Below the pieces are notes generated by a model, which was not told the DNA's origin, did not search any database, and saw only the letters and a list, made by a program, of their open reading frames with translations. The position numbers were made by a program, and so were the translations under genes. Shown here in pieces: positions 3,027 to 20,732 of a stretch of 25,603 bases of DNA (position 1 is its first letter; every line of letters starts with the position of its first letter). This DNA is from a bacterium (GTDB taxonomy: Bacteria; Armatimonadota; Zipacnadia; Zipacnadales; Zipacnadaceae): positions 1 to 25,603 of the forward strand of contig JAUVXR010000035.1 in NCBI GenBank assembly GCA_030603495.1, read 5' to 3'.

Positions 3027-4480
3027 CCACCGACCATCGCCTCCAGAGATTGAAACAGCGGCAGCCCCTCCAGCCCTCGCTCATTGTCCCCGTCCACGCC
3101 CCCCTCCCACGCCTCCAGCGCCAGTAGTCCCAACCGTTCGCGGGCCAGGTCGGCCAAGTAGTGGTGATTCAGGTCCAGCCCCACGCACACGACCGGCGTG
3201 CCCTTCTGGCATAGCTCCTGGCATACGACGGCGGTGGTACCGGACCCCACGAAGGGATCGAGCACCACGGAGGCAGTCACGGGCCAGGTGTCCACGTCGG
3301 CGGGCCATACGTCGCCCTCGGTCGTGCCGTCGATGCAGTGCGGACAGGGTGCGCCGGTTTCAATTGGCGGCGCAAATTCTCGGCCGTCGTGGTCCCGCTG
3401 TAGTCCGCCAATAGTTGCGCGACCCGGCGTCACCTGGCGGTATCCCTCAGTACCTCGTGGATATTCTCGCTCTCTCCCCGTCCCTCGACACTTCCCACAC
3501 CGCACCGGCCCGCGCGTGGGCGCTCCCTGGCAGGTGCAGGTGGGACGCCAAGCGGTGGTAGTTGTTGTTCTTAGCCCTCCAATTCCGCCCGTCTCTTTGC
3601 TGTTCGGCCTATATTGTCCAGCCCCGTTTTCACGAGCATGCCCCTTTTCCGTGGTTGCATCTACCTGGTGATACTGCGTTTTATTCTCCACCACCCGCCC
3701 CCACGCCGCCCCACACACCGGGCAAGTCCCTCTCTCGCTCACGCTGGCCTTGAGCATGATACGGACTAGCTCGCGCGGGTAGGCGGCGTAGTGGGAAAGG
3801 CTGAGCCCTTCGGGGTTCACGGTCCAGACGGTGCGGCGTGTGCGGAATGGCCGATCATAAACGGATAACGTGTCTCCGTCGCCTTGCATCTCACTTGCTC
3901 TCATCGCCTTTTGCCTTGGTGTTTCTGTGCATTTGCCAAGATGTGCCCGCGCCTGCGTACTCTCCGCTACTGGCTCCCTCACCGCGTCAATGTCGAAGAA
4001 GTCGTCCCGGCTCTTGTTCAGCCGATAGATGTACTCGAAATCGCGCGTGAACCGGTTCTGCTGGCTCCCTGGCATCGCGCTTTCTTTGTGCCAGATCACA
4101 GTATCCTCGTGCCGCCAGCCATCCGCCACCAGCGCCTCGACCAGCATCTCGGGCACTCGGAACCATTCACGGCCACTCGTGCGCTTGTCGCCAATATTGA
4201 TCCAGTTCTGCCCGTCGGCGCGCAAGCATCTGTACACCTCTCTGTACACCAGCACCAGATGCCCGATATAGTCTAACACGTGCGGCTCCCAGCCACACTC
4301 ACCACGCCACGGCTCGACGTGCCATCGTTCCGACAGGTACGGGCTGGGCCTGAATGTGACGGCAGGCCAGTCACAGACTACACCATAGCGGCGTTGGCGG
4401 TAGTAGGGCGGACTCGTGACACAAGTGTGCACCGTCCCATCCGCCAGCGGGACCCGGGCAGCGTTAGCCGTCGTCAGCAT
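3023..4480 (-). CDS. Beta-class DNA N4-cytosine/N6-adenine methyltransferase with zinc-finger insert
   Basis: This 485-aa protein has catalytic motif IV TSPPY at residues 22-26 and the S-adenosylmethionine motif DPFVGSGTT at about 408-416. That order, motif IV before motif I, is the permuted beta class. Between them lies an insert of roughly 150 residues with several CxxC pairs (CPVCG, CxC, CGKCRGTG, CPHC), resembling DnaJ-type and ribbon zinc sites seen in phage methyltransferases. Whether the product is N4-methylcytosine or N6-methyladenine cannot be read from TSPPY alone. Its first codons are duplicated downstream of the C5 methyltransferase (5085-5165). It overlaps the MazG-like gene by 17 bases. 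Likely role: protection of phage DNA. Confidence 0.88.
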   Translation of the reverse strand: MLTTANAARVPLADGTVHTCVTSPPYYRQRRYGVVCDWPAVTFRPSPYLSERWHVEPWRGECGWEPHVLDYIGHLVLVYREVYRCLRADGQNWINIGDKRTSGREWFRVPEMLVEALVADGWRHEDTVIWHKESAMPGSQQNRFTRDFEYIYRLNKSRDDFFDIDAVREPVAESTQARAHLGKCTETPRQKAMRASEMQGDGDTLSVYDRPFRTRRTVWTVNPEGLSLSHYAAYPRELVRIMLKASVSERGTCPVCGAAWGRVVENKTQYHQVDATTEKGHARENGAGQYRPNSKETGGIGGLRTTTTTAWRPTCTCQGAPTRGPVRCGKCRGTGREREYPRGTEGYRQVTPGRATIGGLQRDHDGREFAPPIETGAPCPHCIDGTTEGDVWPADVDTWPVTASVVLDPFVGSGTTAVVCQELCQKGTPVVCVGLDLNHHYLADLARERLGLLALEAWEGGVDGDNERGLEGLPLFQSLEAMVGG

Positions 4481-4486
4481 CGGTCA
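4441..4486. repeat. Gene-junction repeat, copy 1 (5' end of the beta-class methyltransferase)
   Basis: This 46-bp segment matches 5126-5171 at 42 of 46 positions. It covers the end of the MazG-like gene and the first codons (MLTTANAARVPLA) of the methyltransferase. The second copy lies at the end of the C5 methyltransferase gene. It marks a recombination junction. Confidence 0.75.
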
Positions 4487-5084: not shown

Positions 5085-5165
5085 TTATCTCCATTTGCTT
5101 ACCTCATCACCAGCGGCAATCACACCCGCCAGCGGTATCCGGGCTGCGTTAGCGGTCGTCAGCAT
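5085..5165 (-). pseudogene. Remnant of the 5' end of a beta-class methyltransferase gene
   Basis: ATG 5165 opens a 26-codon frame beginning MLTTANAARIPLA, nearly identical to the start of the intact methyltransferase at 4480 (MLTTANAARVPLA). It then diverges and stops at 5085. It overlaps the end of the C5 methyltransferase gene, just as the intact copy overlaps the MazG-like gene. It is best read as the scar of an insertion or unequal recombination that placed two genes between the methyltransferase start and its former neighbour. Translation would be possible but pointless. Confidence 0.65.
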
Positions 5166-5171
5166 CGGTCA
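5126..5171. repeat. Gene-junction repeat, copy 2
   Basis: Partner of 4441-4486 (42/46 identical). A shorter related sequence, CATCACCAGCGGCA on the plus strand, occurs at about 5105-5118, 5164-5177 and 5872-5885, at the end of or after successive genes. Gene junctions here were therefore copied more than once. Confidence 0.7.
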
Positions 5172-5860: not shown

Positions 5861-6254
5861 CACTCACCATCACCAGCGGCAGCCACACCCGCCACGCCAC
5901 GGTGGCCCACAATTCCCCGCCCTGCCACTCTGCCCCACTGTAGCAGTGCCAGTGGCCGCAGAAGCAGTCGCCGCCGGTAGGTGCGCCGATGTCCAGCGCA
6001 TTCCAGTGCACGGTCAGCCGGCTAAAGTTCGTGGCGCTGATCACCCGCACGCCGTCGTAGTACCGGCAATCGTCGCACGTCGGCGCGTGATTGAGCCACA
6101 CGAAATAGCCGCAGTCGCCGTCAGCCTCCAGCACGACGCGGTCGGAGTCCACGCTGGCAACCTGCATCGCGGGCGCACGCAGGGTTGCCAGCGTGAGAGC
6201 CAGGGCCAGGATTACGGCGGCTCCGGCAGCTATAGGGATTACTCGCTTTTTCAT
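5853..6254 (-). CDS. Secreted or membrane-anchored Cys-rich protein
   Basis: This 133-aa protein starts MKKR and has a hydrophobic segment at about 5-24, so it is a signal peptide or membrane anchor. The exported part contains CGYFVWLNHAPTCDDCRYYDG and DCFCGHWHCYSG, which could form disulfides or bind metal. ATGA couples it to the gene upstream. No family was recognised. Its Pro-Leu-Val tail falls in one of the junction repeats. Confidence 0.6.
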   Translation of the reverse strand: MKKRVIPIAAGAAVILALALTLATLRAPAMQVASVDSDRVVLEADGDCGYFVWLNHAPTCDDCRYYDGVRVISATNFSRLTVHWNALDIGAPTGGDCFCGHWHCYSGAEWQGGELWATVAWRVWLPLVMVSDG

Positions 6255-6634
6255 TCCGCACCTCCTCCAACGGTGGCCTGGCGAATGCCACGAACCAATT
6301 TACAGCCCGAGCAGTTGCAAGGCGGAAAATGGGGCCACGCTACGGCCTCGCTCTGCGCTCGTGCGGCCCCTTCGCGCAACTGCTGCTCCAGCTCCTCGAT
6401 GCGCTTCACTGCATCCCCAAATCCCTCGTCGCACACCTCGAGCTGGCCCGCCAGCAGGCAAATCCGACAATACGGCCATGTATCTTGCATCGCCGGACGC
6501 TCACAGGATATGCACTCAGCGCCGCTTTCGTGCGGCCCGTCGTCACCCCATATCACGGCAAGCTGTTGCTCAAGCTCCTCGATGCGCGCCGCTGCATATT
6601 GCACGTGCAGGTGCTCGGACAACGATGATCTCAT
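6251..6634 (-). CDS. Coiled-coil protein with zinc-site Cys pairs
   Basis: This 127-aa protein is taken from ATG 6634. It contains two copies of the nonapeptide RIEELEQQL (about residues 17-25 and 79-87), and the underlying bases are also repeated. Between them are CISC and CRIC, and near the end CNCSGC. The layout suggests two short coiled coils flanking a zinc knuckle, probably from an internal duplication. The ribosome-binding site is weak. It overlaps the preceding gene by 65 bases. Function unknown. Confidence 0.55.
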   Translation of the reverse strand: MRSSLSEHLHVQYAAARIEELEQQLAVIWGDDGPHESGAECISCERPAMQDTWPYCRICLLAGQLEVCDEGFGDAVKRIEELEQQLREGAARAQSEAVAWPHFPPCNCSGCKLVRGIRQATVGGGAE

Positions 6635-6776
6635 TCGTCTCTGGGCATGTCTGCATTCCCGCAGGTTGGCAATCATCACAGATCCACACTCCACTACCTG
6701 GAGGAGTTTGCACGCCATAACATTGTGCATCCTCATCAAAAATTGGCATGCCGCACTCTTTACATTTTGCTGACAT
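6570..6776 (-). CDS. Zinc-ribbon small protein
   Basis: This 68-aa protein starts at ATG 6776 after GAGGAAAG. It begins MSAKCKECGMPIF and continues with a Cys at about 19 and ICDDC at about 32-36, a four-Cys ribbon. The rest has no recognised motif. It belongs to a run of small overlapping genes with Cys pairs; a nucleic-acid or protein-binding adaptor is likely but unproven. Confidence 0.6.
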   Translation of the reverse strand: MSAKCKECGMPIFDEDAQCYGVQTPPGSGVWICDDCQPAGMQTCPETNEIIVVRAPARAICSGAHRGA

Positions 6777-6791
6777 CTTTCCTCCTCACCT

Positions 6792-7013
6792 TCACCTTGC
6801 CTCCTCATGCCGCCTCAGGCTGGCCCGGCACCTTTTACACTCTCGCAGGTCCGACGGCGGCTCTGAGAATACAACCCACTCGTGCCAAGAAGTTACCGCA
6901 GCCCACGGATCTCGTGTGCTTATGCCACACAGCGTCGCCCCGCCTTCTGCTATGTGGTACATCTCGCTATACACCAAGGCCACTATGGTCCTATTGAGCT
7001 TCTTGTGTTGCAT
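6792..7013 (-). CDS. Hypothetical small protein
   Basis: This 73-aa basic protein starts at ATG 7013, with GGAGGAGAA just upstream. It ends with ECKRCRASLRRHEEAR, a single CxxC in a basic tail. It overlaps the preceding gene by 31 bases. No family was recognised. Confidence 0.6.
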   Translation of the reverse strand: MQHKKLNRTIVALVYSEMYHIAEGGATLCGISTRDPWAAVTSWHEWVVFSEPPSDLRECKRCRASLRRHEEAR

Positions 7014-7213
7014 TTCTCCTCCTCCTTGACTGGTATCCCCAACTGCTCCCAGACTCCCAGCCGTGATAATTCCGCCAGCAAGTCATCCAGCCGCACGAAG
7101 AAGCCTGCACGATGACCGCCCTTTGGACCTGTTATCACGAAGTGCAAATCTGTGCGCTCGGCATCACCCCAACGCACCTTGACCCTAACCCTGGACCGTC
7201 CGCAAGTCCTCAT
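6983..7213 (-). CDS. Hypothetical small protein
   Basis: This 76-aa protein starts at ATG 7213 with AGGAGGAAAG directly upstream. An N-terminal basic strand (RVRVKVRWG) is followed by DLHFVITG and an amphipathic helix RLDDLLAELSRLGVW, suggesting a small alpha/beta fold. It overlaps both neighbours. Not recognised. Confidence 0.6.
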   Translation of the reverse strand: MRTCGRSRVRVKVRWGDAERTDLHFVITGPKGGHRAGFFVRLDDLLAELSRLGVWEQLGIPVKEEEKCNTRSSIGP

Positions 7214-7361
7214 CTTTCCTCCTCACTAACACCGCCCCTCCATCCCGCTTTATCTCCAACTCCTCCACGCCACATCCCAACAGCCGCGCCGCGTGCTTGC
7301 GGGCGTCGTCGGTGATGGTGTCGGCGCTGTATCCGAGCCATCTACCCGGTTTGAGTTTCAT
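7185..7361 (-). CDS. Hypothetical 58-aa protein
   Basis: ATG 7361 with an upstream GGAGAGG opens a 58-aa frame (MKLKPGRWLGYSADT, then GVEELEIKRDGGAVLVRRKDED). It fills what would otherwise be a gap between two genes and overlaps both. Its charged beta-strand pattern looks genuine. Function unknown. Confidence 0.6.
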   Translation of the reverse strand: MKLKPGRWLGYSADTITDDARKHAARLLGCGVEELEIKRDGGAVLVRRKDEDLRTVQG

Positions 7362-7524
7362 CGGTCAGCCTCTCCAATTTCTCCAGATCCCGCGCCGACA
7401 GGTACCGCCGTATGTATTCAGCGCTCCAGCCCGGCAAACCCTGCTGCCATTGAGCAATAGCGGCCCTGGCCATCTCCAGCGACCGGCCAGTGTAGCACAT
7501 TACGATTGCGGTTTCTTTATCCAT
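7342..7524 (-). CDS. Hypothetical 60-aa helical protein
   Basis: Starts at ATG 7524 and overlaps the stop of the preceding gene by 8 bases. It is mostly helical, with RSLEMARAAIAQWQQGLPGWSAEYIRRYLSAR suggesting an HTH-like or helical-bundle fold. No assignment is possible. Confidence 0.55.
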   Translation of the reverse strand: MDKETAIVMCYTGRSLEMARAAIAQWQQGLPGWSAEYIRRYLSARDLEKLERLTDETQTG

Positions 7525-7813
7525 TGCTCACCTTCTCCGTGTGCTTGAATGCGTGAGAGAATCCACACTCCTCGCAACTCGCGCGATAGTTCACGTGAAA
7601 CTCGTCCCCGTAAATCCCAATTTCCCAGTCCTCACGCATTGTCCACGCCTGTGATCCTTGCACGAGCGGCTGTCTTGACTGCTCAACTAGTTCCAAATAT
7701 TCATCTGCCGCAATTTTGCCGTAGTCAGTTTCAACCCGCTTTATCAAATCTGCTTTTGCCTGTTCTGCTGCCTTCATGCATTTCGGACAAAGTGACCACC
7801 TATCAGCACTCAT
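7517..7813 (-). CDS. Zinc-site protein of unknown function
   Basis: This 98-aa protein starts at ATG 7813. CPKC at about 9-12 and CEEC at about 80-83 bracket an acidic central region, so the two pairs may join into one zinc site. It overlaps the preceding gene by 11 bases. Not recognised. Confidence 0.6.
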   Translation of the reverse strand: MSADRWSLCPKCMKAAEQAKADLIKRVETDYGKIAADEYLELVEQSRQPLVQGSQAWTMREDWEIGIYGDEFHVNYRASCEECGFSHAFKHTEKVSNG

Positions 7814-8000
7814 TGCTCAATTCCTCCAATCTCTCCAGCCCCACCCGCCAGCTATCCGTACAGCATAGCGCCCAGGTCAGTTCCAGCAGCGTGTATGTGG
7901 CTATGATGCGCCCGCTTCTCCCGCGCCGCCATTTGCCGTGGGGCACGGGCAGAGGCGTGCGCTTGGGCAAGGAGAGGGTGATTGTGTCAAGCATCGTCAT
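7803..8000 (-). CDS. Hypothetical basic protein
   Basis: This 65-aa protein begins MTMLDTITLSLPKRTPLPVPH and has the basic stretch GKWRRGRSGR. ATG 8000 overlaps the previous stop as ATGA. Function unknown. Confidence 0.55.
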   Translation of the reverse strand: MTMLDTITLSLPKRTPLPVPHGKWRRGRSGRIIATYTLLELTWALCCTDSWRVGLERLEELSNEC

Positions 8001-14742: not shown

Positions 14743-15152
14743 CGCGCCTCCTTCCACTCGTCATACTCCGCCACCAGCGCCTCGTCACGCCGCAGGTTGC
14801 GGACCGCTCCGCTGTCGACGCAGGCCCCGGCGGCTATCGCCAGGCGTGCCATACTGCAATTGCTGTGCACCTGAACGGCGCAGCGGTCGCACAGCGGGGC
14901 GCCGGTGGTCTCGGTGCGGCAGATGGAACAATGTCGCACCATCGCCAGCCGGCGACCACACTCGCACAATTGACCCATCTCATAATCCGCCCACGAGCGC
15001 CAGCGACCACATTTGCAATGCTTTCCAAGGCCAATATCATCATCCACCGGTATGTCTTTCTCTACCATCTCCCCTTCTCCTCCAGTCGTGCCGCGCCGTT
15101 TCAATCGGCGCGACAACATCCACTCCCTTTCGTCTTCCTCGTATCCTACCAT
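14730..15152 (-). CDS. Multi-zinc-ribbon protein
   Basis: The frame encodes 140 aa from ATG 15152. A second start at ATG 15068 (MVEKDIPVDD) would give 112 aa. Both starts have a family-B start module (GACTGGAGG) upstream. The core has CKCGRW, CECGRR, CSICRT and CDRC within 50 residues, enough for two zinc sites. The C-terminus is helical. Possibly a nucleic-acid-binding adaptor; the two starts might give long and short forms. Confidence 0.6.
   Translation of the reverse strand: MVGYEEDEREWMLSRRLKRRGTTGGEGEMVEKDIPVDDDIGLGKHCKCGRWRSWADYEMGQLCECGRRLAMVRHCSICRTETTGAPLCDRCAVQVHSNCSMARLAIAAGACVDSGAVRNLRRDEALVAEYDEWKEARCST
15079..15112 (-). promoter_or_regulatory. Family-B start module, copy 3, with hairpin
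   Basis: A copy of the GCCCGACTGGAGG element (one mismatch, 15079-15091) sits 11 bases before the internal ATG 15068. Its 5' side abuts a hairpin with 7-bp arms at 15092-15098 and 15106-15112. Compare the copies at 15160-15172 and 15341-15353. Confidence 0.6.
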
Positions 15153-15334
15153 CTCCCAGCCTCCAGTCGGGCCGTGATTGCGCCCTTGAGGTTGCGCAGG
15201 AACTCCTCGTAGTGCTCATCATCTTCGTCTCGAAGATTTTCCAAGACGAAGATGATCCAGTCTAATACCAAGGCGAGCGTCATCGTATAAGGAGCCCCCT
15301 CCAGCGAATCAATGAGATGTTCTCGGTCGATCAT
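15146..15334 (-). CDS. Hypothetical helical acidic protein
   Basis: This 62-aa protein starts at ATG 15334, seven bases after GGAGG. It is almost all helix (LALVLDWIIFVLENLRDEDDEHYEEFLRNLKGAITARLEAGRW) with an acidic patch. Not recognised. It ends inside the start of the zinc-ribbon gene. Confidence 0.6.
   Translation of the reverse strand: MIDREHLIDSLEGAPYTMTLALVLDWIIFVLENLRDEDDEHYEEFLRNLKGAITARLEAGRW
15160..15185 (-). promoter_or_regulatory. Family-B start module, copy 2
   Basis: GCCCGACTGGAGG (15160-15172, minus strand) precedes ATG 15152. A short GGGC/GCCC stem (15169-15172 with 15182-15185) lies on its 5' side. Confidence 0.5.
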
Positions 15335-15340
15335 ATCCAT

Positions 15341-15383
15341 CCTCCAGTCGGGCGTGGGCAGCGAGAGCAAGCGCCCACGCCCG
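15341..15383 (-). promoter_or_regulatory. Family-B start module, copy 1, with 11-bp hairpin
   Basis: GCCCGACTGGAGG (15341-15353) precedes ATG 15334. A perfect 11-bp inverted repeat (15349-15359 with 15373-15383) overlaps its 5' end, between the annealing-protein stop and this gene. No U-tract follows, so the hairpin belongs to the module rather than to a terminator. Confidence 0.65.
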
Positions 15384-15390
15384 GATCGTG

Positions 15391-16398
15391 CTACTCTGCC
15401 GCGTCCCCCATCTCCCCCGCCAACCAGGTGTTGGCGGTGACTGCGGCCTCTTTCGGTTCGGCAGTCGCGCGGGCCTCACCATACACCTTGAGCCAGTTGA
15501 GGACCATATCCTCCGCGTCGCCGGGATCGAGAGTGCTCAGATTGAGCCGCCCGACGATCCTATAGCTGTCCAGGCCCTCCGTCCTCATGGCTGCCTGGAC
15601 CACTTGCGCGGGCCAGGTACGCCCATTGCCGCCACCGTTGCCATTCGTGGTGGCAGCCTTCTTCGGGGCAGCCTTCTTCGGCTTGGGCTTGGCGGCTGGC
15701 TTGCGCGGCGCTTTCTTCTTCGGCTCCTCCTCCGTCACATCGGTGTAGGTGCCGTCGACCAGATCCTCCATATCCTGCGTGAAGAACTCGCTCGCGCCGG
15801 TCGCTACCAATACGGCAGCCACGAGCGCCCGTTTCTGCGCCATCTTCTGGAGTGTGTTGACCAAGTCCCACGGCTCCGGGTTCTCGATGCGCCCCGTCTC
15901 TTGGCCTTCGATTGCCGGTGCGCCGTCTGGGAACTTGGCCCCGCAGCCGCCCTTCTTCTTCCAGCATACCCGCCCGCCGCCGTACTCTGCGCGGCCTTTG
16001 ATGATGGTCTCCTGCCCACAAGTCGGACAGATCAAGGGTTTGGTGCGCCAGCGGTATTTTACCTCCAGGCTATTGCAACTGCCCTCAGCGTCGGCCATCA
16101 CCTGGCCCGCTGCGTCGAGCAGGACACAACGGTACCGGTAGTGAAAGCGTCCAATGTCCCAATCCTCCAATGCGTCCTGGAGACGGAAGGTGGGCCGCAG
16201 ACCGAATAGCGTGCTCAGTTTTTCTGCGCCCGGTTTGAGCAGTGTCTTCCTGCCGCCCGTGCCGGGGATGACGCCATAGTCCACGCCATCGCGGAACACA
16301 TCCCGCGTAGCCTGGACGAGCGCCTGATACCTGGCTTTCATCGTGGCCAGGTCGCCGGTCATCGAGACCGGCCTTACCGTCAATGCCTTGTCCTCCAT
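15391..16398 (-). CDS. Putative ssDNA-annealing recombination protein (Rad52/Erf-like)
   Basis: This 335-aa protein starts at ATG 16398 after GAGGAGGTTCACG. The N-terminal domain has DYGVIPGTGGRKTLLKPGAEKLSTLFGL compressed around residues 40-67, and later KMAQKRALVAAVL and FTQDMED near 189-216. These recur in phage proteins assigned to Rad52/DdrA- or Erf-like annealing proteins. A four-Cys ribbon (CPTCG... and C...GGCG, about 124-153) is inserted. A Lys/Ala/Pro linker (about 226-262) leads to a helical C-terminal domain that may recruit partners. VRR-NUC lies downstream. The family call is moderate; a generic ssDNA-binding protein is the alternative. Confidence 0.6.
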   Translation of the reverse strand: MEDKALTVRPVSMTGDLATMKARYQALVQATRDVFRDGVDYGVIPGTGGRKTLLKPGAEKLSTLFGLRPTFRLQDALEDWDIGRFHYRYRCVLLDAAGQVMADAEGSCNSLEVKYRWRTKPLICPTCGQETIIKGRAEYGGGRVCWKKKGGCGAKFPDGAPAIEGQETGRIENPEPWDLVNTLQKMAQKRALVAAVLVATGASEFFTQDMEDLVDGTYTDVTEEEPKKKAPRKPAAKPKPKKAAPKKAATTNGNGGGNGRTWPAQVVQAAMRTEGLDSYRIVGRLNLSTLDPGDAEDMVLNWLKVYGEARATAEPKEAAVTANTWLAGEMGDAAE

Positions 16399-16409
16399 CG
16401 TGAACCTCC

Positions 16410-16661
16410 TCAGTTCTCTTGAGTGTACGTGAATGTCTGCAACGCCTTCTCCCCGCCCACCATCGGCACGGTGAGCGCGTCCAGCCGCTCGATCAGCGCC
16501 CTCGAAAGCTCCATCTGCGCCGCCAATAGTTCAGTCTGCGCCACCAGTGCGCAGGCGATGGCGAGTTGAGCATTGGCCTGTGCCCCTGCGCCGCCGATAT
16601 CCACTATCTGCGCTCGCTCGATATTGCGTCTTGCCGCGTACAGAAAATCAATGTCCTCCAT
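16410..16661 (-). CDS. Hypothetical helical protein, paralogue A
   Basis: This 83-aa protein starts at ATG 16661 after AAGGAGGTTACACG. It contains ACALVA, IERLDALT and GGEKALQTFTY, shared in order with the next upstream gene (16674-16880), which has ACALVA, VKRLDALT and GGDKSLYVI. The two are tandem paralogues that differ by a 13-residue helical insertion. The start region also resembles that of the annealing-protein gene. Function unknown. Confidence 0.6.
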   Translation of the reverse strand: MEDIDFLYAARRNIERAQIVDIGGAGAQANAQLAIACALVAQTELLAAQMELSRALIERLDALTVPMVGGEKALQTFTYTQEN

Positions 16662-16673
16662 CGTGTAACCTCC

Positions 16674-16880
16674 TTATCGTGTGGTTGCTCGTGTGGTTAT
16701 GACATACAACGACTTGTCACCGCCAAATTCCGTGAGCGCGTCCAGCCGCTTGACCAGCGCCACCAGTGCGCAGGCAGTGGCGATTTGGCTTGCTACTGGC
16801 CCATATTGCTGATATGCCTCTTCGCTCGTCTGCACCTCAACGAAATCAATCTGCTTCTTTGCCTCTGCCAGATAATCCAT
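16674..16880 (-). CDS. Hypothetical helical protein, paralogue B
   Basis: This 68-aa protein starts at ATG 16880 with GAGGAGGATGTG upstream. It shares the core ATACALVALVKRLDALTEFG pattern with the downstream paralogue. Its C-terminal codons contain a tandem repeat of CAACCACACGA, which runs into the next gene's start region. Confidence 0.6.
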   Translation of the reverse strand: MDYLAEAKKQIDFVEVQTSEEAYQQYGPVASQIATACALVALVKRLDALTEFGGDKSLYVITTRATTR

Positions 16881-16903
16881 CACATCCTCCTCTGTGTGTG
16901 GTG

Positions 16904-17302
16904 CTACTGTGCGCCCGGTATCTCCGCCGCGTCCCGACCGTCTCCATTCTGACCCGTCGGCTCCTCTGCGGCCAGTGCGGTGTAATCGGGTGCCATTGGG
17001 TCGGTGGCGGGCAGGCACTCGTCGCAGTAATAATGTGCCAGGCCGCCGACAATGATCTCATATCGTGCAAATCCTCGGCATTCCTCGCATCGCTCTGGGT
17101 TGACCAGGGCCTCGATGCTGTGAGGCTGCCGGGCCTCCCATATTGTTCCCCTCGCCGCCTCAATGTGTACCGTGGCAATCCGCGTGAATCTCTGCGCCTC
17201 GGCGATCAGCTCCGCCAGACCGATCAGGGTCGCCATGTCCTCGGCGGTGTGGATCTTGCCGAGGTGCTGAATCATCCTGTCCGCTGCATCTGTCAGTTTC
17301 AT
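16904..17302 (-). CDS. Zinc-finger hypothetical protein
   Basis: This 132-aa protein is taken from ATG 17302, four bases after GGAGG; ATG 17305 directly abuts the site and is less likely. Helical N-terminal half (TDAADRMIQHLGKIHTAED), then CEEC near 74-77 and YYCDEC near 93-98, a four-Cys zinc site. Acidic tail. A family-A start module precedes it. Confidence 0.6.
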   Translation of the reverse strand: MKLTDAADRMIQHLGKIHTAEDMATLIGLAELIAEAQRFTRIATVHIEAARGTIWEARQPHSIEALVNPERCEECRGFARYEIIVGGLAHYYCDECLPATDPMAPDYTALAAEEPTGQNGDGRDAAEIPGAQ

Positions 17303-17306
17303 CATA

Positions 17307-17326
17307 CCTCCCTCGTGATTGTGGGG
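17307..17326 (-). promoter_or_regulatory. Family-A start module, copy 5
   Basis: On the minus strand this reads CCCCACAATCACGAGGGAGG, a variant of the module upstream of genes at 19882, 19539, 19302 and 20164. It supplies the ribosome-binding site for the gene starting at 17302. Confidence 0.6.
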
Positions 17327-17328
17327 TC

Positions 17329-17547
17329 TCAATCGCTCCTGGCTGCCACCGCGCAGGGGGGCAGCCCCCCATCCTGTTCGCGCAGGGTGAGCCAGCCTTC
17401 CCACCTGGTCAGCCAGGGAAACAATCCCTTGCTGAATACTCTGACGTAGACCCGCTGGCCGTCTATGGCCGTGATCTCACCAACCACACTGCTCCGGTCG
17501 GCGGGATACACTACAATGCTGTCGCCAATTTTTACCGTCATCGTCAT
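17329..17547 (-). CDS. Hypothetical beta-barrel-like small protein
   Basis: This 72-aa protein starts at ATG 17547 (ATGA overlap, GGAGGGACG upstream). GDSIVVYPADRSSVVGEITAI followed by GQRVYVRVFSKG suggests a small KOW- or SH3-like barrel. The C-terminal codons include a perfect 7-bp inverted repeat of G and C (17356-17370). Function unknown. Confidence 0.6.
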   Translation of the reverse strand: MTMTVKIGDSIVVYPADRSSVVGEITAIDGQRVYVRVFSKGLFPWLTRWEGWLTLREQDGGLPPCAVAARSD

Positions 17548-17789
17548 CGTCCCTCCGCCTCCGCCCTGCGCTCCAGGGCGTCGCAGTATTCCTCGTGCTG
17601 GGCGAGCTGTTTGGCCCGGTCCAGCTTTGTATCCTCCGTCACCTGCCGCCGCCACTCTGCGAAGATGGCGCGTAGTCCAGCGGTCAGGTTGCCGGTATCG
17701 CCGACGTGGTGGGCCATCGCCAGGATGTCGGCGATGATGTCAGCGCTCAGACGGAAGGTGCAACTCTTGCCAGCTTCATTTTTTATCAT
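17544..17789 (-). CDS. Possible ribbon-helix-helix DNA-binding protein
   Basis: This 81-aa protein starts at ATG 17789 (ATGA overlap). CTFRLSADIIADILAMAHHVG, then TGNLTAGLRAIFAEW, resembles a ribbon-helix-helix layout: a short strand with alternating residues, then two helices. A helical charged tail follows. DNA-binding is inferred from the pattern only. Confidence 0.5.
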   Translation of the reverse strand: MIKNEAGKSCTFRLSADIIADILAMAHHVGDTGNLTAGLRAIFAEWRRQVTEDTKLDRAKQLAQHEEYCDALERRAEAEGR

Positions 17790-18007
17790 TGTGAGAACCT
17801 TTCCCGAATACAACGGTCGAATGCCTTATTGATCTCCTCAATAATTGTCTTGATGTGTTGTTGTCGTGATTCTGCTTCTCCACTATAATCACGACAGGTT
17901 GCAGTGATGCGCTTGCCATTGACATAGGTATCTACCTGATAACCATACGATACGAGCCATACCTTAAACTCTATATCTGGTATTGGGTCTGGCATTAGCT
18001 TATCCAT
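17786..18007 (-). CDS. Hypothetical small protein
   Basis: This 73-aa protein starts at ATG 18007, overlapping its upstream neighbour by 13 bases. FKVWLVSYGYQVDTYVNGKRITATC suggests two strands, followed by a helix EEINKAFDRCIRERF. Not recognised. The DNA is more AT-rich than average here. Confidence 0.55.
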   Translation of the reverse strand: MDKLMPDPIPDIEFKVWLVSYGYQVDTYVNGKRITATCRDYSGEAESRQQHIKTIIEEINKAFDRCIRERFSQ

Positions 18008-18198
18008 TGTGGCAGATACGTGTAGTTCTTGTGGCTCAAAAACTTGCCTACTCGAACTTCAAATACCTCTACGGTGTCCAGAATCTTAGCGGCCCTCGCC
18101 GTTGCATTTTCCCATGTGCCGGTGAAGACTTCTGCGAATTCCCAGCCTCCAAGAGGTTGTCTCTTTTCGATTCCCCAGTCTCTGATTTTTGTATCCAT
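17995..18198 (-). CDS. Hypothetical small protein, first gene of its promoter
   Basis: This 67-aa protein starts at ATG 18198, about 37 bases after the predicted start of transcription. WEFAEVFTGTWENATARAAKILDTVEVFEVRVG suggests an alpha/beta fold. The ribosome-binding site is only AAAGAGAGAG. Not recognised. Confidence 0.6.
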   Translation of the reverse strand: MDTKIRDWGIEKRQPLGGWEFAEVFTGTWENATARAAKILDTVEVFEVRVGKFLSHKNYTYLPQWIS

Positions 18199-18241
18199 TT
18201 GTTTCTCTCTCTTTGTTTGTTATCACTTGTCTTACAATGTT

Positions 18242-18270
18242 ATTATACTCCAAGTCGTTGCCCCTGTCAA
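18242..18270 (-). promoter_or_regulatory. Sigma-70 promoter for the 18.2-kb leftward operon
   Basis: Minus-strand TTGACA (18265-18270), a 17-bp spacer and TATAAT (18242-18247), exact consensus, preceded by GTGC. It drives the gene at 17995-18198 and those beyond. Confidence 0.87.
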
Positions 18271-18276
18271 GCACTT

Positions 18277-18330
18277 GCCCCCTTTCCCCCTGAATTTTTA
18301 AGAATTAGGGCCGAAAAGGGGCATTTTATT
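18277..18330 (+). terminator. Hairpin with T-rich tail upstream of the 18242 promoter
   Basis: Arms GCCCCCTTT (18277-18285) and AAAAGGGGC (18313-18321) form a GC-rich stem around an AT-rich interior containing CTGAATTTTTAAG. On the plus strand ATTTTATTT follows. It may stop plus-strand read-through, or simply insulate the promoter. A weaker CCTCGTG/CACGAGG stem lies at 18333-18352. Confidence 0.35.
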
Positions 18331-18364
18331 TACCTCGTGGGAGAGCACGAGGGGGCGCGAGAAG

Positions 18365-18685
18365 TCACGAGATTTCGTGCGGCCATGGCAGGTCGAGTCG
18401 CATGACTGCTTTCACGTGCTCGTCCTGCGTCGAACATACGGCCTGGCCCGCCGTGCACCGCACGATCTCGCGCCGTACATAGCGCGAGTGCGGGCAGTCA
18501 TCGTGGTGATAGATTGTGTAGTGACTGCCGGGCCGTACTGCTGTAACCCGGCAGCCGCAGCCCGTCACCAAGCCCTCCACGACTTGCGTGACGTGACGGC
18601 CACCTGGCAATGATTGCAGGCCGCGCGATTCCCGCATGTTGTTGTGAAGCTCGTCTACCTCTGACTGAGATTTGAATCGATACAT
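18365..18685 (-). CDS. Hypothetical His/Cys-containing protein
   Basis: This 106-aa protein starts at ATG 18685 after AGGAGGAAAATA, its ATG overlapping the TAA of the DUF3307 gene. TGCGCRVTAVRPGSHYTIYHHDDCPHSRYV in pieces suggests a metal site of Cys and His near residues 45-75. Unknown function. Confidence 0.6.
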   Translation of the reverse strand: MYRFKSQSEVDELHNNMRESRGLQSLPGGRHVTQVVEGLVTGCGCRVTAVRPGSHYTIYHHDDCPHSRYVRREIVRCTAGQAVCSTQDEHVKAVMRLDLPWPHEIS

Positions 18686-19077
18686 TATTTTCCTCCTGCA
18701 TAGAACACCGCCACGATCACTGCCAGGTGGCACGCTTGATCCACCACCAGCCCGGGCCAGCGCGGCAGCCCAAATTTGTCGCAGCCGTCGATCACCAGGT
18801 GCGACGCGAACCCCGCCAGCCCGCCGGCCAGCGCTAGGCCAGGATCACCTGCAGCCAGGCCCAGGCCAGCGAGTGGGAGGAATCCAGCCACGAGGCTGTG
18901 CACCAGCAATGCGCGGCGGTCGGTGGCCTTGGTGGTCGCCCACTGCGTCTGGAGCGTGAAATCCAGTAGCAGGTGGAGCACCACGGCCACCACCAGCGGG
19001 GCATACTGCCGGGGCAACGCGGGGAGCATCGCCGCCAGCAGTATGCCCGTGAGGGAGGGGTAGTGGAACCAGGGCAC
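18685..19077 (-). CDS. DUF3307-family membrane protein
   Basis: This 130-aa protein has several membrane segments. The DUF3307 signature is visible: HLLLDFTLQTQW near 35-46 followed by a Lys at 50 and a conserved LVHSLVAG near 58-65, then further hydrophobic stretches and SHLVIDGCDKFGL. Family members occur in phages and bacteria and have no established function. GTG 19077 directly follows the upstream stop codon. Confidence 0.78.
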   Translation of the reverse strand: MPWFHYPSLTGILLAAMLPALPRQYAPLVVAVVLHLLLDFTLQTQWATTKATDRRALLVHSLVAGFLPLAGLGLAAGDPGLALAGGLAGFASHLVIDGCDKFGLPRWPGLVVDQACHLAVIVAVFYAGGK

Positions 19078-19296
19078 CTAAATCTCGCTTGCCAACGGGT
19101 CTGCTGGCTTTCCGCTTGCACAGATTGCCCCGGAATGGGGCACGCGCTCACGGCAATACCGACATGCCTCATCTGCGCCCTGGTATGCGCATAATTCGTT
19201 CCAGTCATCCGGGAGTTTGTCTTGGCAGGCCCTCACGCCTGCCACATCATACCCCTTCGTGCAATATGAACCCGCGCACCTCGATAGTCCTCTCAT
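19078..19296 (-). CDS. Cys-rich hypothetical protein
   Basis: Read from ATG 19296 (six bases after GGAG; ATG 19302 abuts the site), 72 aa with seven Cys: CAGSYC, a central pair spaced by about 15, then CRYC and a last single Cys. They may bind zinc. A family-A start module precedes it. Not recognised. Confidence 0.6.
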   Translation of the reverse strand: MRGLSRCAGSYCTKGYDVAGVRACQDKLPDDWNELCAYQGADEACRYCRERVPHSGAICASGKPADPLASEI

Positions 19297-19302
19297 TTCC
19301 AT

Positions 19303-19325
19303 CTCCTTTTCGTGTGATTGTGGGG
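19303..19325 (-). promoter_or_regulatory. Family-A start module, copy 4
   Basis: Minus-strand CCCCACAATCACACG followed by AAAAGGAG. A GGGG/CCCC mini-hairpin lies at its 5' side (19322-19333). It supplies the ribosome-binding site for the gene at 19296. Confidence 0.6.
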
Positions 19326-19332
19326 ACAGCCC

Positions 19333-19539
19333 CTAGACGGTCTCCTCGATCTCGTATTCCCCCACATCCGAGGTCATACAGTCCACATACATTTGCGCCG
19401 CCGCGTGTGTCGGGTAGATCACCCGTTCCTCTTCGATGCCGAGCACCCATCGCCACTTGCTGCCGACCCTGACGAGTCCGGCTATCCATAGCCCATCGGG
19501 GCAGGAGATTGCAAAGCCTTGTTCGTTCTCGTTTGTCAT
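19333..19539 (-). CDS. Hypothetical small protein
   Basis: This 68-aa protein starts at ATG 19539. Beta-rich N-terminal half (FAISCPDGLWIAGLVRVGSKWRWVLG), then a helix with AAAQMYVDCM and an acidic tail. Not recognised. It stands alone between intergenic hairpins and a family-A module. Confidence 0.6.
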   Translation of the reverse strand: MTNENEQGFAISCPDGLWIAGLVRVGSKWRWVLGIEEERVIYPTHAAAQMYVDCMTSDVGEYEIEETV

Positions 19540-19546
19540 CGTGCTG

Positions 19547-19560
19547 CCTCCTGTGTGATT
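19547..19560 (-). promoter_or_regulatory. Family-A start module, copy 3
   Basis: Minus-strand AATCACACAGGAGG directly before the gene at 19539. The 94-base spacer upstream holds two hairpins: 5-bp arms at 19583-19587/19596-19600 and 7-bp arms at 19617-19623/19632-19638. Confidence 0.65.
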
Positions 19561-19654
19561 GGTTGCCCCCTCAGCTTCTCCCGGCAGGCTTGGGACTGCC
19601 CTCGGCGTTTTAGGCAGCGCGGCTCCTCCGGGCCGCGCCTCGATTCTTGGCGGG

Positions 19655-19882
19655 CTATATCTCCTCTGTCCTGAACATCGGATAGACTGCGCCCGTGCCG
19701 CCGCCCTTGTTCCGCGCCTGGCTGATCCAGATGCTCGTGCTCCTGGCTACAATGTTACCATCATCGTCTTTGACGGCCCAATCGTAGCCATACGATGGCG
19801 GCCCGGTCACGTCCACCATAGCTACTGAGCGCGTCCAGCCGTCTGCCTCTGCCTGTTCTAGCGTTTCATAACTGTGAAGCAT
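19655..19882 (-). CDS. Hypothetical small protein
   Basis: This 75-aa protein starts at ATG 19882. The pattern SYGYDWAVKDDDGNIVARSTSIW suggests paired strands; the start is helical. Not recognised. Confidence 0.6.
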   Translation of the reverse strand: MLHSYETLEQAEADGWTRSVAMVDVTGPPSYGYDWAVKDDDGNIVARSTSIWISQARNKGGGTGAVYPMFRTEEI

Positions 19883-19891
19883 CTCGCCTTG

Positions 19892-19930
19892 CCTCCTGTG
19901 TGATTGTGGGGCGGCCTGGGTGGCCGCCCC
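19892..19930 (-). promoter_or_regulatory. Family-A start module, copy 2, with 9-bp hairpin
   Basis: The clearest copy: CCCCACAATCACACAGGAGG (19892-19911, minus strand) preceded directly by a perfect 9-bp GC hairpin (19908-19916 with 19922-19930). No U-tract follows, so the hairpin and the start site form one unit. Confidence 0.7.
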
Positions 19931-19939
19931 GGTTACCGC

Positions 19940-20164
19940 CTACTCTCCAATGATTACGCCGTCCATATCCAGGCGTACCATGAAGCCCCGCTCCTCTGCC
20001 CAGTTGCACATCTCGTTGCGCAGGTCGTTGTCCTGGTTGATGTTCTCAGGTGAGAGGTAGCGCGTGAATGTCTTGCCGCTGGGGTAGGTCATCGTGAACT
20101 TTCTGTATCCGTGGTCTGCCGCTTCTTCTTTCAGTACTGCTACTTTCTCTGTTGCCCCTGTCAT
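19940..20164 (-). CDS. Hypothetical small protein, first gene after the 20.2-kb promoter
   Basis: This 74-aa protein starts at ATG 20164, after GGGAGGTACACGGAG. A basic/aromatic middle (YRKFTMTYPSGKTFTRYLS) and an acidic helix (NDLRNEMCNWAEERGF). Not recognised. Confidence 0.6.
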   Translation of the reverse strand: MTGATEKVAVLKEEAADHGYRKFTMTYPSGKTFTRYLSPENINQDNDLRNEMCNWAEERGFMVRLDMDGVIIGE

Positions 20165-20173
20165 CTCCGTGTA

Positions 20174-20191
20174 CCTCCCTGTGTGATCGTG
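20174..20191 (-). promoter_or_regulatory. Family-A start module, copy 1
   Basis: Minus-strand CACGATCACACAGGGAGG, directly before the gene at 20164 and about 20 bases after the -10 box of its promoter. It is the only copy without an upstream hairpin. Confidence 0.55.
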
Positions 20192-20257: not shown

Positions 20258-20285
20258 CAGCACAGGTGTTCTACAGCAAAGAGCC
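20258..20285. repeat. 28-bp direct repeat, copy 1 (flanks the plus-strand gene)
   Basis: Identical to 20705-20732 at 27 of 28 positions. It lies 5 bases before the -35 box of the plus-strand promoter. The same sequence in copy 2 is the distal half of the terminator stem and its tail. Confidence 0.85.
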
Positions 20286-20348: not shown

Positions 20349-20627
20349 GTGAGCACAGAGCGAACGACCATACTGTTGAATGACGATGACCGGTGGGCCG
20401 TCGATGTGATCCGATGCTATACCGGCATCCAAAGCCGTAGCGCCATTATCCGTGACACTCTGCGCGAACGTGCGCGGGCAATTGAACGCGAAAAGGCAGC
20501 GGCAAGGGAACGCAAGAAGGCGGAGACACCGGCCAGCATTAGTGTTATGGAGGGAGTCTATGCCAGCATGGAACCACGAGCGCAGGCAGAGCACGAGGCA
20601 ATGTTGGCACAGTTGAGAGATATGTGA
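20349..20627 (+). CDS. Ribbon-helix-helix-like DNA-binding protein (moron)
   Basis: The only plus-strand gene, 92 aa, starts at GTG 20349 after GGAGGTGA. RTTILLNDDDRWAVDVIRCYTG, then SRSAIIRDTLRERARAIERE, matches a CopG/Arc-like ribbon-helix-helix: a short strand, helix A, a turn and helix B. A charged coiled-coil region and a helical tail follow. Its own promoter, opposite orientation and flanking 28-bp repeats mark it as an independently expressed insertion. It probably represses its own promoter or a host gene. No toxin partner is adjacent, so an antitoxin role is not supported. Confidence 0.7.
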   Translation: MSTERTTILLNDDDRWAVDVIRCYTGIQSRSAIIRDTLRERARAIEREKAAARERKKAETPASISVMEGVYASMEPRAQAEHEAMLAQLRDM

Positions 20628-20704: not shown

Positions 20705-20732
20705 CAGCACGGGTGTTCTACAGCAAAGAGCC
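20705..20732. repeat. 28-bp direct repeat, copy 2
   Basis: Partner of 20258-20285, offset by 447 bp. Its right end forms part of the terminator stem of the peptidase operon, so the repeat probably derives from the terminator and its tail. Confidence 0.85.

Follow-up and report, generated by a model that had tools for sequence, protein, structure and literature searches.

A repeated leader at the starts of unrelated small genes in a phage-like contig

Why should a series of unrelated small genes begin behind the same sequence? The question is raised by a stretch of 25,603 nucleotides (nt), hereafter the window, that comprises positions 1-25603 of contig C54 in a bacterial (host) assembly of 2.67 Mb and 62 contigs. 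In five of its minus-strand genes, with ATG codons at 20164, 19882, 19539, 19302 and 17302, the sequence (C)CCCACAATCACAC stands directly 5' of a strong Shine-Dalgarno (SD) sequence. We asked whether the resemblance among these leaders (copies 1-5) exceeds chance, whether the leader belongs to a known class of phage repeats, and what it may do.

Similarity beyond the Shine-Dalgarno sequence

With the SD masked, the pairwise similarities of the five leaders (25 nt each) summed to 97.5, compared with 43.7 ± 3.4 (maximum 59.5) in 3000 dinucleotide shuffles. The observed value lies about 16 standard deviations above the shuffles and was reached by none of them (0/3000). A search with a 20-mer allowing up to three mismatches gave two sites as against none in 100 shuffles, and three of the other copies match the core ACAATCACAC with zero or one mismatch. 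Among the 27 SD-led starts of the window, 24 pairs score 7 or more, whereas 200 shuffles gave a mean of 5.6 and a maximum of 14 such pairs. In a sequence model built from the five copies, these score 17.9-22.8 bits (E ≤ 1e-4), and nothing else in the window exceeds 7.8 bits; as high scores are built in for the sequences used in training, the case rests mainly on the shuffle test. A preliminary description of this locus had claimed conservation beyond the SD and had set beforehand that a similarity no greater than that of any SD region would overturn the claim. The masked comparison upholds it, and the leader family is real and not a product of chance for copies 1-5.

The same description had placed the five copies correctly: all are present on the minus strand, each before a plausible open reading frame (ORF) with an ATG (Table 1), and their genes, as it had stated, are unrelated, with no mutual relatedness by BLASTP. 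Its count of five covers the strong copies and overlooked two graded members, at the ATGs 16661 and 16880. In the model, the leader at 16661 (caaccacacgataaggagg) ranks second and that at 16880 (caccacacacagaggagg) sixth among the non-training matches, with E-values (0.73 and 4.9, respectively) that are insignificant. Judging from sequence resemblance, we regard both as probable weak members of the family (members 7 and 6; shuffle P in Table 1). They are not independent of each other because their genes are paralogues (33%, E 5e-6; BLASTP).

The best conserved block of the leader is CCCCACAATCAC, identical in copies 2, 4 and 5, while AATCAC or GATCAC is found in all five copies, with the block starting 18-25 nt before the ATG. 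A C/A-rich, G-poor sequence (CCCCACAATCACAC) is followed within 3-7 nt by the strong SD, and the 15 nt before the SD are 84% A+C in the leader copies as compared with 46% in other leaders. ATCAC and the GGAG of the SD are 3-4 nt apart in copies 1, 2, 3 and 5; copy 4, like both weak members, has a spacing of 7 nt. The SD, which had been counted as part of the repeated element, does stand 3' of each copy in a strong form, but it varies between copies (GGGAGG, AGGAGG, AAAAGGAG), and the best conserved block lies outside it.

All copies have a single orientation, lie at ribosome-binding sites of same-strand ORFs and are confined to a non-structural gene cluster at 20.2-16.6 kb. Between 20.2 and 16.4 kb, the leader precedes seven of nine gap genes (intergenic gap of at least 11 nt; the seven include the two weak members) and none of five overlapping or abutting genes (Fisher P 0.02), a contrast that is only supportive because coding constraint alone would bar a fixed sequence from overlaps. 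The gap genes without the leader are 18198, which has a perfect promoter consensus of its own (Table 1), and 16398. At copies 2-5, no promoter-like or terminator-like match was found on the minus strand.

We infer that the window is part of a tailed-phage genome. Nearly all of its genes lie on the minus strand, and Pfam and PHROG scans identified phage-type functions among them, namely helicase loaders, a VRR-NUC/Holliday-type nuclease, a holin and DNA methyltransferases. The assignment is put no more strongly because the profile scans run on the window identified no capsid, portal or large-terminase gene. No overlap between the contig ends was seen. The minus-strand cluster is presumably early, judging from the adjoining divergent regulator gene and its non-structural gene content.

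Table 1. Leader copies and associated features of the window
Feature	Positions	Strand	Remarks
Leader copy 1, CACGATCACACAGGGAGG...ATG, ORF 20164-19940	20162..20191	-	TATAAT a few tens of nt upstream; without hairpin
Leader copy 2 (reference copy), CCCCACAATCACACAGGAGG...ATG, ORF 19882-19655	19880..19911	-	
Leader copy 3, CAACCAATCACACAGGAGG...ATG, ORF 19539-19333	19537..19566	-	
Leader copy 4, TCCCCACAATCACACGAAAAGGAG...ATG, ORF 19302-19078	19300..19326	-	4-bp GGGG/CCCC stem upstream
Leader copy 5, CCCCACAATCACGAGGGAGG...ATG, ORF 17302-16904	17300..17328	-	
Weak member 6 (probable), CACCACACACAGAGGAGG, ORF 16880-16674	16878..16906	-	shuffle P 0.056
Weak member 7 (probable), CAACCACACGATAAGGAGG, ORF 16661-16410	16659..16687	-	shuffle P 0.015
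9-bp GC hairpin, 3' foot = CCCC of copy 2	19908..19930	-	-23 kcal/mol, z -4.5
Promoter with perfect sigma-70 consensus (TTGACA-17-TATAAT), upstream of ORF 18198 (gap gene lacking the motif)	18242..18270	-	
Ribbon-helix-helix (CopG-like) gene, divergent from the early gene cluster	20349..20627	+	PF01402, E 2.7e-4

RNA structure, known start-associated repeats and relatives

The preliminary description had copies 2 and 4 abutting a GC hairpin and further hairpins upstream of copy 3. Base pairing is indeed found in both of the former, with the CCCC of the motif as the 3' foot, but only the hairpin of copy 2 is significant, whereas the short stem of copy 4 is not more stable than chance (z -0.63). 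For copies 3 and 5, the upstream structures are no better than shuffles, which leaves the proposed hairpins of copy 3 without support, and copy 1 has none. A hairpin, significant in one of five copies, is not a defining or constant part of the element. An extended SD was likewise rejected: the exact sequence GGATCACCTCCTTTCT, taken as the 16S 3' end, is present in the host assembly and cannot pair with ACAATCAC or CCCCACAATCAC, so that only the GGAGG part pairs.

The parallel drawn earlier was with the start-associated sequences (SAS) of cluster K mycobacteriophages and their extended form (ESAS). SAS are 13-bp repeats at ribosome-binding sites, with 11-19 copies per genome, before non-structural genes only (Pope et al. 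2011, PMC3203893). The window leader shares with SAS/ESAS the short asymmetric repeat at the ribosome-binding site, the single orientation, the non-structural genes, the conservation beyond the 16S-pairing part, the unrelated downstream genes and the rarity or absence in the host. However, the conserved bases of SAS lie on either side of the SD core, at 3-7 bp from the start, whereas those of the window leader are 5' of the SD. The two also differ in sequence, as had been said: at up to two mismatches, the SAS GGGATAGGAGCCC has a single match, no more than chance predicts (0.86 expected), which falls on the plus strand within a gene of the minus strand, and none at the leader starts. The inverted repeats of ESAS are 17 bp long, imperfect and built on a common consensus, and were judged unlikely to be RNA hairpins (PMC3203893); in the window, only copy 2 is significant, and the arms share only GGGG/CCCC. 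The parallel is apt as regards position and orientation, the confinement to non-structural genes and a conservation that extends past the SD, but weak in its hairpin half.

Nearest in geometry is the arrangement in cluster EC Microbacterium phages, where an asymmetric motif of 18 bp sits in small intergenic regions, 21-30 bp ahead of starts and 5' of the ribosome-binding site (PMC7302621). Asymmetry, common orientation, intergenic position and placement upstream of the ribosome-binding site are shared, the AATCAC block of the window beginning, as said, 18-25 nt before the ATG. The EC sequence TAGaCTCTaGGTgTaAgC is, compared by eye, unlike the window leader, and its 12 copies lie in part among structural genes. 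Cluster EF Microbacterium phages carry an SAS/ESAS-like GGGAAAGGACCCC with an upstream conserved part (PMC7302621) and resemble the window in having a repeat at the ribosome-binding site and, 5' of it in intergenic gaps, a less strongly conserved portion, but GGGAAAGGACCCC gave no match at up to two mismatches. The function of the cluster K, EF and EC repeats is unknown in all cases (PMC3203893, PMC7302621). Promoter-stem-loop (PeSL) cassettes of T4-type phages (Arbiol 2010, Comeau 2014, via PMC4503421), as summarized in the latter source, combine an early promoter with a stem-loop; they too are repeated regulatory sequences at junctions of small early genes and a proposed aid to gene shuffling. 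Most window copies, however, have neither promoter nor stem-loop and do not qualify as PeSL cassettes on that summary.

Ribosome standby sites are defined by structure and not by conserved sequence, whereas the window leader has conserved sequence. The likeness to such sites (see PMC3936740) is that of a single-stranded segment beside a structured element upstream of the SD. The leader shows the general features of start-associated repeats, being asymmetric, intergenic, in the same orientation and at a short, near-constant distance from the starts of unrelated genes. By its sequence features it belongs to this known kind, but to neither of the named families K and EF; EC was compared by eye only.

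In the host assembly, a 17-mer of the leader allowing up to three mismatches has eight sites outside C54, compared with four for the reversed control. One of these, C24:120607 (three mismatches), precedes an ATG, while the other contexts read outside C54 show no clear start, and closer forms of the 17-mer occur within the assembly on C54 only. The exact 16-mer is absent from all 290 other genomes of the phylum (290/290). The exact 17-mer was found in five viral stretches, none with a series of copies, and a wide distribution was rejected, the looser pattern being as frequent as its permuted control among the matches listed (at least 75 each). The search for relatives yielded only homologues of the 16398 gene (~37-56% identity), none of which has a matching leader series.

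We also screened 175 loci (nearly all viral, 1.72 Mb, window included) for SD leaders sharing a 10-mer. At least three such leaders were found only in the window and in L058, an unrelated viral contig. On the reverse strand of L058 (reverse complement, about 6190-7990), some five gene junctions carry GGCGGCTCTCCGTACTACCAAGGAGG, which there codes for the end of the preceding proteins and contains the SD of the following gene; its sequence differs from that of the window leader. Two other candidates were set aside. In L027 (9908-9990), and also in L030, L088 and L192, an inverted-repeat element has CACAATCACACAGGAGG, or a near form, and an ATG in its middle, followed in L027, L030 and L088 by unrelated ORFs that all begin with MSASS. 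The ribosome-binding site lies inside this different element, with one copy per locus, and the resemblance of L027, L030 and L088 to a hairpin-leader module was taken as coincidence; the element is possibly a mobile start module of its own. In the related viral contigs L068, L072 and L099, the palindrome GTGTGANTCACACAG is repeated many times, sometimes at a ribosome-binding site; the palindrome (GTGTGANTCACAC) occurs in many places and is not a leader.

What the leader may do

Our preferred reading, which we believe and doubt in about equal measure, is that the element is a phage-specific start-associated repeat that would give uncoupled early genes their own ribosome-loading site, with its copies spread by duplication. 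The leader would occupy the short gaps ahead of early genes whose translation is not coupled to that of the preceding gene, and each small early gene would thereby obtain a loading site of its own and an independent translation start. Copies would have arisen by duplication between gene junctions and would have been kept as working start modules useful to a newly placed gene. What suggests a loading site is the similarity beyond the SD, the position at the ribosome-binding site, the bias towards gap genes, the A+C-rich and less structured linker, the unrelated genes and the published phages with the same layout. Known start-associated repeats come from actinobacterial phages, are differently spelled and have no proven function. 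A further, independent instance whose sequence differs, on a phage-like contig without detectable close relatives, would suggest that phages repeatedly reach shared start modules for small early genes, and the five to seven leaders offer a compact, testable set.

Several observations count against this proposal. Twelve identical bases are more than an unstructured leader needs. In a comparison that involves small numbers, three tests and uncorrected P values, the 15 nt before the SD are predicted to be somewhat less structured than in other leaders (P 0.04), but the predicted accessibility of the SD is not above that of other genes (P 0.56), so that an accessibility model holds only in part, with a mildly less structured linker and an SD that is not more accessible. 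In copies 2 and 3 the SD is predicted to be partly sequestered, in copy 3 by pairing with an upstream GCTGCCT. The contrast between gap and overlapping genes arises partly from coding constraint, and no close relative was found in related-locus searches with four window proteins or in whole-genome searches.

So many identical bases, which a loading site would not require, would fit a leader that is the sequence-specific target of a trans-acting reader serving as a common switch of the early genes, be it a small RNA or, as the preliminary description had suggested, an RNA-binding protein of the phage or the host. The position of the best conserved block outside the SD, and the preservation of its sequence while the SD spacing varies (3-4 or 7 nt), point in the same direction. 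We nevertheless consider such a reader unlikely. The only candidate protein examined, CsrA, is missing in the host assembly (no PF02599 match, while control genomes match), which leaves a CsrA/RsmA site unsupported, and no known RNA-binding family was found in the Pfam and PHROG scans that were run. The exact complement of the leader occurs in the window only at the sites themselves, leaving a complementary small RNA unsupported. A narrower version, more doubtful still, would have an undescribed translational regulator, encoded by the phage, bind the shared 12-14-nt sequence and so switch an early regulon of unrelated small genes; if the leader were the target of a regulator, the phage regulon so defined would be of a new kind.

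Alternatively, as the preliminary description had also proposed, the leader could be a recombination seam, a short junction homology for swapping small genes that has no role beyond carrying the SD. The copies lie exactly at junctions between unrelated small ORFs, 16880/16661 is a local gene duplication, and the unrelated phage L058 has its junction sequence five times. Moreover, GGAGGTT(A)CACGATGGAGGACA spans the start codon in both 16661 and 16398, which are non-homologous genes. The shared block of the leader, however, ends near the SD and the flanks differ, whereas recent exchange would share flanks, and no related genome shows a gene gained or lost between two leaders, no close relative having been found. 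We give the seam a rather small chance.

The asymmetry, single orientation and intergenic position of the leader, together with the CopG-like gene adjoining copy 1, would also suit a DNA-level operator or stoperator of a phage repressor, e.g., the divergent ribbon-helix-helix protein, but every copy is locked to a ribosome-binding site, and none was found in the window ahead of the regulator's own gene or at a distance from gene starts, so that we regard an operator as very improbable. Coincidence among SD regions of A/C-rich composition is hardly credible: the core 14-mer with an ATG is no commoner in viral contigs than a permuted control among the matches listed (at least 75 stretches each), with no sign of the core being widely selected, but composition-preserving shuffles never attain the observed similarity and L058 is the only one of the 175 loci besides the window with at least three SD leaders sharing a 10-mer, which refutes chance for copies 1-5 and leaves it as a possible origin of member 6.

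Neighbouring repeats

The CopG-like gene is probably a regulator. This opposite-strand gene is flanked by a 28-bp direct repeat (96%; 20258-20285 and 20705-20732), given which it may have been inserted as a cassette, and a terminator-like hairpin (20755-20728) adjoins one copy of the repeat. Elsewhere, two neighbouring leaders (15334-15392 and 15152-15180) have GCCCGACTGGAGG in common, the first standing directly after a long GC hairpin (z -2.7). In the methyltransferase region, a 52-bp repeat (88%; 4435-4486 and 5120-5171) is found at one gene start and one gene end.

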